In this document: in pieces, positions 13,583 through 22,298 of the stretch
How the letters are laid out: the number at the start of each line of letters is the position of its first letter
Position numbering within the stretch: position 1 is the first letter of the stretch
NCBI GenBank assembly: GCA_902622875.1
Contig: CACNRW010000001.1
Location: forward strand, 62,001 to 126,000
DNA length: 64,000 nucleotides
DNA from: an uncultured SAR116 cluster alpha proteobacterium
Lineage (GTDB): Bacteria; Pseudomonadota; Alphaproteobacteria; Puniceispirillales; Marisalimonadaceae
Reading direction: 5' to 3'
Notes under the pieces: generated by a model
What the model saw: the letters and a program-made list of their open reading frames with translations, nothing else
What the model was told of the DNA's origin: nothing
Database searches by the model: none
Position numbers and translations under genes: made by a program

Positions 13583-15019
13583 ATGCAAAAAAATGAATCA
13601 CATACAAGTACTAAAGAGATTATAATAGGACAGGACGAAGATATAGTTGATTTTCAAATGTTGCAAAATGACAATTGGGAAAAAACAAAACAGGTAATTT
13701 CGTTGAATATAAAAGAGATTATTTGGAAAGCTTGGATAGAGCCATTAAACTTTATAAAATATGAAAAAAAAGTACTATATCTAGGCTCAACCTCGAAATT
13801 AATTTCAAACAGAGCTGAAACCCAATATTATGAAACAATTTTTTATGAAGCTTCAAAATATTTTGAAGATTTACTGAAGGTTATTATTCTCACAAAAAAT
13901 AAATTCCAAAAATTGAATTCTTCTAAAATTGAAAAACAATTTAATCCTGAGCTTGACACTCTAATTAATAATAATCTTTCATTTATAGACAGCGTGTCTA
14001 TGAATATTAATAAAACACTAAACTTTGATAATTTTGTAGTTGGAAACTCTAATCAGATGCCTTATGCGGCTTCAAAAAGAATATGTGATAAAAGTTCTTT
14101 TATTTATAATCCACTTTATATTTATGGTAATGTTGGTATGGGAAAGACCCATTTATTAAACGCAATTGCAATAGAGCTAAAAAAAAACAATCCAAATATA
14201 AAAGTTGTATTAATGTCTGCGGAACGATTTATGTATCAGTTTATAAAAGCTATAAGACAAAAAGATACTATAAAGTTCAAGGATCAATTTAAATCTGTCG
14301 ATGTTTTAATTATAGATGATATTCAATTTATTGGTGGAAAAGGTTCAACTCAAGAAGAGTTTTTTTATACATTTAATAATTTAATTAATGAGGGCAAAAA
14401 AATCATAATTTCATCTAACAAGTCACCTGTTGAATTAATTGATTTAGATGAGAAGTTAAAGTCAAGATTAGGAGGAGGGTTGGTTGTTGATTTTCTCCCA
14501 ACTAATTATGAGTTAAGACTAGATATACTTAGAAAAAAAGTTAATTTATTAGGTCTTAATATACCATTTGATGTTCTTCAATTTTTAGCCAAAAAAATTG
14601 TAAGTAATGTTAGAGAATTAGAAGGAGCTTTAAATCGTATTTGGGCTAATCACGAACTTTCAGGTAAAGATATAAGTATAGAAAACTCAGAAAATTTATT
14701 ATCGGACATTTTGTTAGTTAATGAAAAAAATATATCTGTTAGTCTTATACAAGAACAAGTCTCACTATTTTTTAATTTGAAATTATCTGATATGATTTCC
14801 TCAAGACGTTCTATTAACATTGCCAGACCTAGGCAAATTGCTATGTATATTAGTAAAACAATAACTAGTTTCTCTTATCCTGAGATAGGTAAAGCCTTTG
14901 GAGGCAAGGACCACACAACTGTAATTCATGCAGTTAAAAAAATTGAGGCATTATCAATTGTAGATCTAAAATTAAAAAAACAAATTTCTGATCTTAAAAA
15001 ATCTATTCTTACCATTTAA
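13583..15019 (+). CDS. dnaA: Chromosomal replication initiator protein DnaA
   Basis: YGNVGMGKTHLLNAIA, VDVLIIDDIQFIGGK, C-terminal DnaA-box-binding signature (GKAFGGKDHTTVIHAVKKIE). Confidence 0.98.
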   Translation: MQKNESHTSTKEIIIGQDEDIVDFQMLQNDNWEKTKQVISLNIKEIIWKAWIEPLNFIKYEKKVLYLGSTSKLISNRAETQYYETIFYEASKYFEDLLKVIILTKNKFQKLNSSKIEKQFNPELDTLINNNLSFIDSVSMNINKTLNFDNFVVGNSNQMPYAASKRICDKSSFIYNPLYIYGNVGMGKTHLLNAIAIELKKNNPNIKVVLMSAERFMYQFIKAIRQKDTIKFKDQFKSVDVLIIDDIQFIGGKGSTQEEFFYTFNNLINEGKKIIISSNKSPVELIDLDEKLKSRLGGGLVVDFLPTNYELRLDILRKKVNLLGLNIPFDVLQFLAKKIVSNVRELEGALNRIWANHELSGKDISIENSENLLSDILLVNEKNISVSLIQEQVSLFFNLKLSDMISSRRSINIARPRQIAMYISKTITSFSYPEIGKAFGGKDHTTVIHAVKKIEALSIVDLKLKKQISDLKKSILTI

Positions 15020-15134
15020 ATTATTCATATTAAACGTAAAATCTTTGACACGTAATTGCTTGCTGAAATAAGTCTAAACATGTTATAATAATTGAATAAT
15101 ATTTATGTTTATTTGTAAGCGATTGAGGTAAATT

Positions 15135-16244
15135 ATGAATTTTACAATTGATAGAAATGCACTTCTTAAACCACTTGGACATATATATTCTGTAGTCGAA
15201 AGAAGAAATACAATACCAATATTATCTAATGTTTTAATAGAAACAAATTCATCAAAAGTATCATTTACAGCTACAGATATGGACATGGATATTGTCGAAG
15301 TCACTGGTTGCGTTGTTTTGAAACAAGGTAAAATCACACTTGCAGCTCATACTCTTTACGATATTGTAAGAAAACTTCCCGATGGAGCTGAGATTAAAAT
15401 TGAACTTGTTGATTTAAATGTGCAAGTTTCAGCGGGTAAATCTAAATTTATTCTTCCAACTTTATCGGTTGACGATTTTCCTGTTATGACAGAAATTGAA
15501 AAGGGTAATGAATTTTCCATAGAATCCGTTGATCTTGCAAATTTGATTGATAACACTAAGTTTGCGATTTCTTCGGAAGAAACTAGATATTACTTAAATG
15601 GTATTTTTTTTCATGTTCCTGAACTAAACAAAGATAAGTTAAGAGCAGTAGCAACGGACGGACATCGTTTAGCTCAAGCTGAAATTCCACTTCCTGAAGG
15701 TGCTGAAACTATGCCTGGTATAATTTTGCCAAAAAAAGCAGTTGGAGAAATAAGAAAACTGACTGATGGAACCGATGGTAAAATTAAAATTATTATTTCC
15801 AGTACTAAAGCAAAATTTATTTTTCCAAATTCCGTTTTAACAACTAAATTGATAGATGGTTCATTTCCAGATTATCAAAGGGTTATACCTAAAGAAAATC
15901 TAAATAAATTAGTAGTTTTTAACTCGGATTTTTCAAAAGCTATTGATCGAGTTTCTACTGTATCTATGGAAAAATCAAGAGCTGTTAAGCTTTCGTTAAA
16001 TAAAAATTTATTATCGTTAAATGTTAATAGTCATGATTTAGGCAATGCATCTGAGGATTTAGAAATAGACTATAATTATGATAATTTAGATATAGGATTT
16101 AATGCAAAATATCTTCTAGATATAGCATCACAAATTCAAGGGAAAGAAATAGAAATTTTATTATCAGATTCAGCTTCGCCCGCCTTGATTACAGATCCAG
16201 ACCAAGATGGTGTTATTTTTGTCTTAATGCCTATGAGAGTTTAA
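15135..16244 (+). CDS. dnaN: DNA polymerase III subunit beta
   Basis: Sliding clamp; ATDGHRLAQAE, C-terminal VLMPMRV. Confidence 0.98.
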   Translation: MNFTIDRNALLKPLGHIYSVVERRNTIPILSNVLIETNSSKVSFTATDMDMDIVEVTGCVVLKQGKITLAAHTLYDIVRKLPDGAEIKIELVDLNVQVSAGKSKFILPTLSVDDFPVMTEIEKGNEFSIESVDLANLIDNTKFAISSEETRYYLNGIFFHVPELNKDKLRAVATDGHRLAQAEIPLPEGAETMPGIILPKKAVGEIRKLTDGTDGKIKIIISSTKAKFIFPNSVLTTKLIDGSFPDYQRVIPKENLNKLVVFNSDFSKAIDRVSTVSMEKSRAVKLSLNKNLLSLNVNSHDLGNASEDLEIDYNYDNLDIGFNAKYLLDIASQIQGKEIEILLSDSASPALITDPDQDGVIFVLMPMRV

Positions 16245-16282
16245 TTTATTTATAAAATTAGATAAGTATATCTAGGATAGAA

Positions 16283-17506
16283 ATGAAAAATAATGTTTTA
16301 AACTTCAGAGATGATATTCAAACGAATGAAATTTCAAATAAATTTTATATAAAAAAACTAAATTTAAAAAATTTTAGAAATCATGTTGATTTAAATTTGA
16401 AGATTTGTAAATCGTCTTTATTAATATATGGAGGTAACGGTTGTGGCAAGACTAATATTTTAGAGGCTGTCTCTTTATTAAATCAAGGCAAAGGTCTTCG
16501 AAAATCAAACATAGAAGATTATATAACTCAGAAAATTTTGTGTAAAGGCAGTTATAATATTTGGGGAATAAATGCAGACTTTGTATGTCCCAATGGTAAG
16601 TTTAACATAGGAACAGGACTGAAAGAAGATTCACTTAAAAAAACGCGAATGGCTAAAATTAATATGGATAAATGTTCTTTAAGTTCGTTAGGAAAAATTC
16701 TAAAAATATCTTGGATTACTCCTCAAATGTGTATTTTATTCCAAACTGGTATGAGTGAAAGGAGGCGTTTTATAGATAGGCTTACTTCTTCGTTAGATAG
16801 TCTACATTTAAATAGAGTATACAAACATGAAAAACTCTTAAGACAAAGAAGTAAACTTTTGACGCAACTCCACAGAGATAATACATGGTTAAATACTTTA
16901 GAAAGTCAAATTTCTGAGTTTTCAGTCGCTATTACCGCTTCTAGATTAGACATGGTTCAAGAGTTAAACGATTTATACAATACGGAATTAATTGAAAATA
17001 ATTTAATAAATCATTTTCCACCCGCAGAGATAAAATTGACAGGAAAAATTGAAGAACTTCTTACCAATAAACCTGCTTCAGAAGTAGAAGGTTATATTAG
17101 AGATGTCTTAAGAAAATCCCGCTTTTCTGAGGAAGAAACTATTTCTGGACCAAATAAGACTATAGTAGAAATATTTAATAGAAAAAATAATAAAAATGTC
17201 AACTTTGCCTCTACAGGTGAACAGAAGCTTTTATTAATTTCTATTATTTTATCTCACGCAAGAATGCTAAACAAAAAATTCAATATGGCGCCCATTTTAT
17301 TGTTAGATGATATTGTAGAGCATTTAGATAAAAAACACAGAAGTGCATTATTTTTAGAGGTATCCAGGCATGAAGGTCAATCTTGGTTTACTAGTACAAG
17401 TAAAGAAGCTTTTGCAGATTATCCAGCTTTAATTGATAAAATAAATCTTCCAAAAATAATTAATTGTTTCAAAGGTCAATATGATTTTAAATATGGAGAA
17501 ATATAG
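16283..17506 (+). CDS. recF: DNA replication/repair protein RecF
   Basis: Walker A GGNGCGKTNILEAVSLL, LKNFRNH N-terminus; dnaN-recF-gyrB synteny. Confidence 0.95.
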   Translation: MKNNVLNFRDDIQTNEISNKFYIKKLNLKNFRNHVDLNLKICKSSLLIYGGNGCGKTNILEAVSLLNQGKGLRKSNIEDYITQKILCKGSYNIWGINADFVCPNGKFNIGTGLKEDSLKKTRMAKINMDKCSLSSLGKILKISWITPQMCILFQTGMSERRRFIDRLTSSLDSLHLNRVYKHEKLLRQRSKLLTQLHRDNTWLNTLESQISEFSVAITASRLDMVQELNDLYNTELIENNLINHFPPAEIKLTGKIEELLTNKPASEVEGYIRDVLRKSRFSEEETISGPNKTIVEIFNRKNNKNVNFASTGEQKLLLISIILSHARMLNKKFNMAPILLLDDIVEHLDKKHRSALFLEVSRHEGQSWFTSTSKEAFADYPALIDKINLPKIINCFKGQYDFKYGEI

Positions 17507-21177
<3,671 letters not shown>

Positions 21178-21214
21178 AAAAATCTCCGTAACGAAATTAT
21201 TGCAAAAAACAATT

Positions 21215-21380
21215 TACCCCATCTGTCACGGAACCTGAAAGATTGACCAAAATTGGCTTACCCCTTCGGTGGATGAAAAATTCATCACTCTCCAGATTAT
21301 CAACTTTTTGTGTTTCGGGAGCCTGAGAGTTTCCGGGGTGGTTGCTCCTTCGGCGGTTAAAAAACACTCTCACACAAAAA
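21215..21380 (-). ncRNA. Tandem glycine riboswitch (two aptamers) in the dadA leader
   Basis: On the minus strand: GTGAGAGTG...CCGCCGAAGGAGCAA...AAACTCTCAGGCTCCCGAAACAC, then TCTGGAGAGTGATGA...CACCGAAGGGGTAAGCC...AATCTTTCAGGTTCCGTGACAGATGGGG; both show glycine aptamer core motifs. Confidence 0.93.
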
Positions 21381-21443
21381 GACATTGATTATTAATTATA
21401 ACAATTAAAAATTAAAAAAACAACATAATTAAGGTTACGACTT

Positions 21444-22298
21444 TTACTTCTCACATCTTGTTACTATAAAAACACCTATACATGAAAGAGATAAGCCAAA
21501 TAGATCAAGATACGAAAATTTTTCGTTTAGGATTATAAATGCCATTAAGGCTGAAACTGGAGGAACTAAGAAAAATAAAGTAGATGTTTGATTAGCTTTA
21601 TTTTGTTCTAACAACCACATCAAAATCAAAAAAGCTCCTAGTGAAACTCCAAATATTTGCCAAGACATAGCAAAAATGAATTCATTCGAAAAGTTTATAA
21701 AATAATTTTCAAAACAAAGCGCAAGAAAAAAGTGAAAAATTGAGGCACTTAACGCTTGAAAAAAATTATTACCTAAAAGTGACAAATCGGATTCTGATTT
21801 CTTTTGCCATATTATTCCAATAGACGAAGAAATCAATCCAATCAACCCTGCAAAAAATGCAAAGAAAGTTAAACCTTCTATTAAGTCAGAAGTGATTATA
21901 ATAAATGCACCGAAAAACCCAAAGCAAATACCCATCAACTGAAATTTAGATAAAGTCTCACTTAAAAAAAAATTTGCAAGAATAGATGTTAAAATAGGTT
22001 GTAATGAAACAATTAGAGCTATAAGACTAGCAGATATACCTTTTGATAAGGCATAAAAAACACTACCTAAATACAGACCATGAAATAATAAACCGCTAAT
22101 GGTCGCGTTTTTTAAAGCTTCTAAAGAGATTTTTTTATTTTTTGAAAAAAAAATAAAAAGTAAGAAAAAAAGAAAAGTTACAATTCCAAATCTAATTGAA
22201 AGTGAAAAAAATGGCGTAGCATTCTCAATTATTATTTTGCTTGTAATAAAAGCAGAAGACCAAAGTAAAACAAAAATTATTGGTATGATATTAAGAAT
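21444..22298 (-). CDS. EamA/DMT-family membrane transporter; start codon unresolved
   Basis: The ORF track begins at an internal TTG (21938), but the same frame stays open to 22310 and encodes typical EamA N-terminal helices (ILNIIPIIFVLLWSSAFITSKIIIENATPFFSLSIRFG...). No ATG/GTG/TTG in frame upstream. Confidence 0.72.
   Translation of the reverse strand: MLNIIPIIFVLLWSSAFITSKIIIENATPFFSLSIRFGIVTFLFFLLFIFFSKNKKISLEALKNATISGLLFHGLYLGSVFYALSKGISASLIALIVSLQPILTSILANFFLSETLSKFQLMGICFGFFGAFIIITSDLIEGLTFFAFFAGLIGLISSSIGIIWQKKSESDLSLLGNNFFQALSASIFHFFLALCFENYFINFSNEFIFAMSWQIFGVSLGAFLILMWLLEQNKANQTSTLFFLVPPVSALMAFIILNEKFSYLDLFGLSLSCIGVFIVTRCEK

Follow-up and report, generated by a model that had tools for sequence, protein, structure and literature searches.

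A tandem glycine riboswitch in the genome of an uncultured SAR116 alphaproteobacterium probably switches on a flavoenzyme of the PRK12409 family that oxidises glycine in place of the lost glycine cleavage system (gcv). The RNA is located in a stretch of 64,000 nt, the whole of which is referred to as the window. That the riboswitch is present and controls the DadA-like gene downstream of it, as already proposed by a first-pass annotation, is almost certain, and the control has strong support in its conservation among Proteobacteria and in the pairing predicted with the ribosome-binding site; an action of the enzyme on glycine is likely, judging from its regulation and from the replacement of gcv. 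On balance, PRK12409 seems to be a widespread glycine dehydrogenase/oxidase, almost always under riboswitch control, which in several genera of SAR116 takes the place of gcv through a glycine-glyoxylate-malate route, and the database name "D-amino acid dehydrogenase" is probably wrong for this family.

The first-pass annotation had placed a tandem glycine riboswitch on the minus strand between 21380 and 21215, about 35 nt before the dadA start, and the covariance model RF00504 gives two matches there with identical scores, both above the gathering score of 32 bits. A cmscan of the whole window returned a single match, corresponding to aptamer 2 (E 4.4e-09), and aptamer 1 was added by a genome-wide RF00504 search (E 3.4e-11 per genome), its absence from the cmscan output being probably due to the 5-nt overlap of the two matches. 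The aptamers and the quoted glycine aptamer core strings were thus recovered in the sequence and the distance from aptamer 2 to the ATG (21177) is exactly 35 nt; the proposed start was corrected from 21380 to 21384, and the leader-linker helix begins just outside the proposed range. The two aptamers abut and, as in a tandem riboswitch, a leader strand pairs with the linker in the predicted minimum-energy fold, so that the complete element, including the leader-linker helix and the 35-nt spacer, extends from 21389 to 21178 on the minus strand (Table 1). The tandem element of the window is the sole glycine riboswitch found in the SAR116 genome, which is 81% complete. The columns of the aptamer core are invariant across 22 aptamers, gcv- and dadA-linked alike, and a ligand-variant aptamer was ruled out on this unchanged core; a chance match or a pseudo-riboswitch was ruled out by the scores and by conservation, since the arrangement of riboswitch and gene recurs throughout the genus. 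As far as its sequence indicates, nothing sets this RNA apart from the known class RF00504.

Table 1. Positions of the features of the riboswitch and of its target gene in the window
Feature	Position	Strand	Basis
Leader strand (AUCAA) of the leader-linker helix, 5' of aptamer 1	21385..21389	-	predicted minimum-energy fold
Glycine aptamer 1	21301..21384	-	RF00504, 56.8 bits
Linker strand (UUGAU) of the leader-linker helix	21299..21303	-	predicted minimum-energy fold
Glycine aptamer 2	21213..21305	-	RF00504, 56.8 bits
Anti-ribosome-binding-site strand UUCCGUGACAGA (J3/1 and 3' strand of P1, aptamer 2)	21222..21233	-	ligand-free fold and 30 relatives
Complementary segment GUUACGGAG with ribosome-binding site GGAG (21187-21184)	21184..21192	-	12-bp helix in the clade
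62-aa ORF, artefact	21197..21385	-	contained in the aptamers and platform
DadA-like FAD oxidoreductase, 412 aa	19939..21177	-	NF009074 (PRK12409), 625.3 bits (cut-off 494)

The 62-aa ORF, which had been regarded as an artefact of the RNA, does exist; it lies almost wholly within the riboswitch and was rejected as a real gene, being the riboswitch RNA itself. On the other side of the RNA, an EamA-type transporter (21444-22290) is encoded upstream on the same strand and, being 5' of the riboswitch, was ruled out as its target. The ORF of this transporter has no conventional in-frame start codon at its 5' end and shares 82% identity with a relative from residue 21 onwards, so that another start or a small frameshift may be involved. 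The window, whose closest named relatives are single-cell genomes of SAR116, is located near the origin, with dnaA-, dnaN-, recF- and gyrB-like ORFs, named from their sequence, at 13583-19942. The gyrB-like gene (plus strand) and the DadA-like gene (minus strand) form a tight convergent junction in which the stop ends overlap by 4 nt (19939-19942), and the gyrB-like neighbour is retained in close relatives.

Control by the riboswitch would be exerted at the ribosome-binding site. The 3' edge of aptamer 2 is complementary to the segment that contains this site, which is sequestered in the predicted ligand-free fold of the window RNA. In 30 relatives, 95.3% of the cells of the 12-bp helix are paired, compared with at most 50.6% in slid controls, and all 30 sequences tested pair better than their shuffles (p ≤0.05); in a wider set, composed mainly of distant homologues, the pairing is less consistent (46% at p ≤0.05). 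Covariation in the platform is limited to one two-sided pair change (G-C to A-U) in two sequences, which is not above shuffles. P1 of aptamer 2 and the sequestering helix have positions 21225-21222 in common, and since P1 uses part of the sequestering strand, glycine binding should free the site, a release that the folding predictions reproduce in part. The modelled 12-bp pairing suggests an ON switch acting on translation, which is what a catabolic gene would be expected to have. No terminator-like site was found at the riboswitch platform and a terminator platform was ruled out.

An OFF switch, or transcription termination instead of control at the ribosome-binding site, draws on the fact that in the bound-like state, with aptamer 2 sequestered, the site can still pair in a predicted weak hairpin (about -3 kcal/mol when taken by itself), and the ON direction is accordingly not clear-cut in the predictions. 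This alternative is unlikely in view of the missing terminator-like site and of the clade-conserved helix that hides the ribosome-binding site in the ligand-free fold; in addition, glycine riboswitches generally activate their catabolic targets (PMC6944388).

The linkage between riboswitch and gene is not an oddity of the window within its clade, since it is general. In the genus, the riboswitch is present in 35 of 36 relatives and is 5' of the gene wherever the sequence was read; in the order (121 genomes), all the placed riboswitches are 5' of PRK12409 (62) or gcvTHP (27), two further GcvP genomes, outside these counts, having the riboswitch unplaced on a separate contig. Moreover, the best 80 homologues from named members of the alpha-, beta- and gammaproteobacteria (14 of SAR116 type, the others from Rhodobacteraceae, Rhizobiales, Burkholderia, Comamonas, Marinobacter and Halomonas relatives) all have an RF00504 match within about 330 nt 5' of the gene. 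Because these 80 homologues were picked by protein similarity, a second, phylum-even sample was drawn, in which the riboswitch is located at 20 of 21 PRK12409 genes versus 2 of 25 DadA-like sister genes (Fisher p 1e-9), five of these sister controls coming from SAR116 itself. The association with the dadA gene singled out by the first-pass annotation is conserved in the genus, in the order and in named Proteobacteria. The two sister genes with a glycine riboswitch (L170:339-443 and L177:293-411) belong to one family and apparently represent a separate hook-up, and one PRK12409 gene (G060, L142) has no riboswitch in 1.6 kb of upstream sequence. No conserved neighbour gene of PRK12409 was found beyond close relatives, and the gene neighbourhood was set aside as a clue to the substrate.

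The distribution of gcv adds a metabolic side to this linkage. None of the 37 genomes of the window's genus, several of which are 93-100% complete, has GcvP or GcvH, and among the 121 genomes of the order 62 have PRK12409 only, 34 GcvP only, three both and 22 neither; the exclusion has a p of 0.02 at the level of genera, the genomes themselves not being independent. In one of the three genomes that combine the two systems, each has a riboswitch of its own, and near-complete genomes of one genus (g5) with neither PRK12409 nor GcvP have no riboswitch. The exclusion fails as a general rule outside SAR116, where GcvP is kept in 14 of 21 PRK12409 genomes; several of these have a second tandem riboswitch near gcv, so that the two systems seem to belong to a single glycine regulon. 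In two genomes (G039 and G065), gcv has no detectable riboswitch in the stretch read and PRK12409 has one (L133, L134). The genome of the window has malate synthase G and serine hydroxymethyltransferase (SHMT). By established pathways, the formation of one-carbon units from serine leaves glycine behind and, the cleavage system being gone, an outlet for this glycine is required, the simplest of which would be its oxidation to glyoxylate followed by condensation to malate.

The protein encoded by the target gene is, as annotated at first, a FAD oxidoreductase similar to DadA, with a Pfam DAO match of 210 bits. It passes the cut-off of NCBIfam NF009074/PRK12409 ("D-amino acid dehydrogenase") and fails those of classical DadA PRK00711 (316.2 vs 383 bits) and of ThiO TIGR02352 (125.3 vs 250.8 bits). 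In a search with the predicted structure (mean pLDDT 85), the closest PDB folds among the matches listed are glycine oxidases, which are likewise placed closest by profile searches; a classical DadA structure is absent among the fold matches listed, so that glycine and D-alanine enzymes are not separated by this search, which was not taken as a proof of substrate. Sarcosine, dimethylglycine and iminodiacetate oxidases are also among the fold matches listed and would fit a methylated or other glycine derivative as the substrate, with glycine reporting the flux; this is unlikely, given that glycine oxidases rank higher by both sequence and fold and that an ON switch sensing its product would follow an unusual logic. 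In the protein tree, the family of the window forms one group and other SAR116 sequences form another, the order of the forks being partly resolved. The PRK12409 gene of Comamonas testosteroni NFYY023 (L095:3001-4230) is interrupted by a stop at codon 182.

A true D-amino acid (D-alanine) dehydrogenase, for which glycine is merely the signal, for example because in excess it replaces the D-alanine of the cell wall and disturbs its pools, would agree with the NCBIfam equivalog name, with the similarity to PRK00711 DadA and with the riboswitch linkage of the two DadA-like sisters of one family. It is rather improbable, since 23 of the 25 sisters are without a riboswitch, no conserved neighbour points to D-alanine and the C-terminal motif differs, being GHGHLGW, invariant in PRK12409, with its second histidine (H385) invariant across 37 PRK12409 proteins, and GHGTLGW in most DadA-like sister proteins; furthermore, the substitution of gcv in SAR116 would be left unexplained. 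The first-pass annotation had offered two readings, a mis-named glycine-oxidase-like enzyme and a glycine/D-amino-acid catabolic switch; the former is favoured and the latter less so, because the riboswitch tracks PRK12409 and not its DadA sister, no neighbour is conserved beyond close relatives and gcv is missing. In particular, the near-universal linkage to the riboswitch and the usual replacement of gcv in these ocean bacteria make a role in glycine breakdown probable. The link with gcv loss and the wide conservation are additions to that annotation.

We infer the binding of glycine, the ON direction, glycine as the substrate and the route to malate, which together would give the following mechanism. 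At low glycine, aptamer 2 would pair through its 3' edge with the ribosome-binding site and keep translation low; the binding of glycine would lead to the formation of P1 in aptamer 2, by which the strand would be withdrawn from the site and the enzyme would be made. Glyoxylate and ammonia would then be produced from glycine by the enzyme, and the glyoxylate would enter the TCA cycle through malate synthase G, substituting for the lost glycine cleavage system.

In the literature searched, a glycine riboswitch on PRK12409, on a glycine oxidase or on a D-amino acid dehydrogenase is unreported, although an earlier listing in the supplementary tables of PMC3766115 or PMC6944388 is possible; within this literature, neither the target nor the re-annotation that it implies seems to have been described. 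They offer a testable correction to a name assigned automatically across alpha-, beta- and gammaproteobacteria and suggest a disposal route, in abundant gcv-less ocean bacteria, for the glycine left from one-carbon metabolism. That PRK12409 and GcvP nearly exclude each other within one order, although each has a riboswitch of the same type, is a clear case of a regulatory RNA that hints at what a probably misnamed enzyme acts on.

Among the closest known systems is the tandem RF00504 riboswitch of gcvTHP, which, like that of the window, has two aptamers, a conserved core and a single platform and which, in sister genera belonging to this order, is located 5' of gcvTHP; the target in the window is, in contrast, a single flavoenzyme gene, and the cleavage system is absent. 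As for the protein, DadA (PRK00711) is the closest sister family of PRK12409, but the protein of the window scores below its cut-off, and the sister genes differ in their motif and in being rarely linked to a riboswitch. The DAO fold is in common with the glycine oxidase ThiO, whose structures are the closest solved ones among the matches listed, whereas the protein of the window scores below the ThiO cut-off, is encoded outside a thiamine operon and shares about 20% identity or less. A further close counterpart is the glycine riboswitch on the malate synthase gene glcB in SAR11 (PMC2211319, PMC5069720), where a glycine-responsive RNA is linked to the glycine-glyoxylate-malate route in another marine alphaproteobacterium; the malate synthase G gene of the window's genome is, in contrast, without a nearby RF00504 match, and the switch of the window would act one step earlier in this route.
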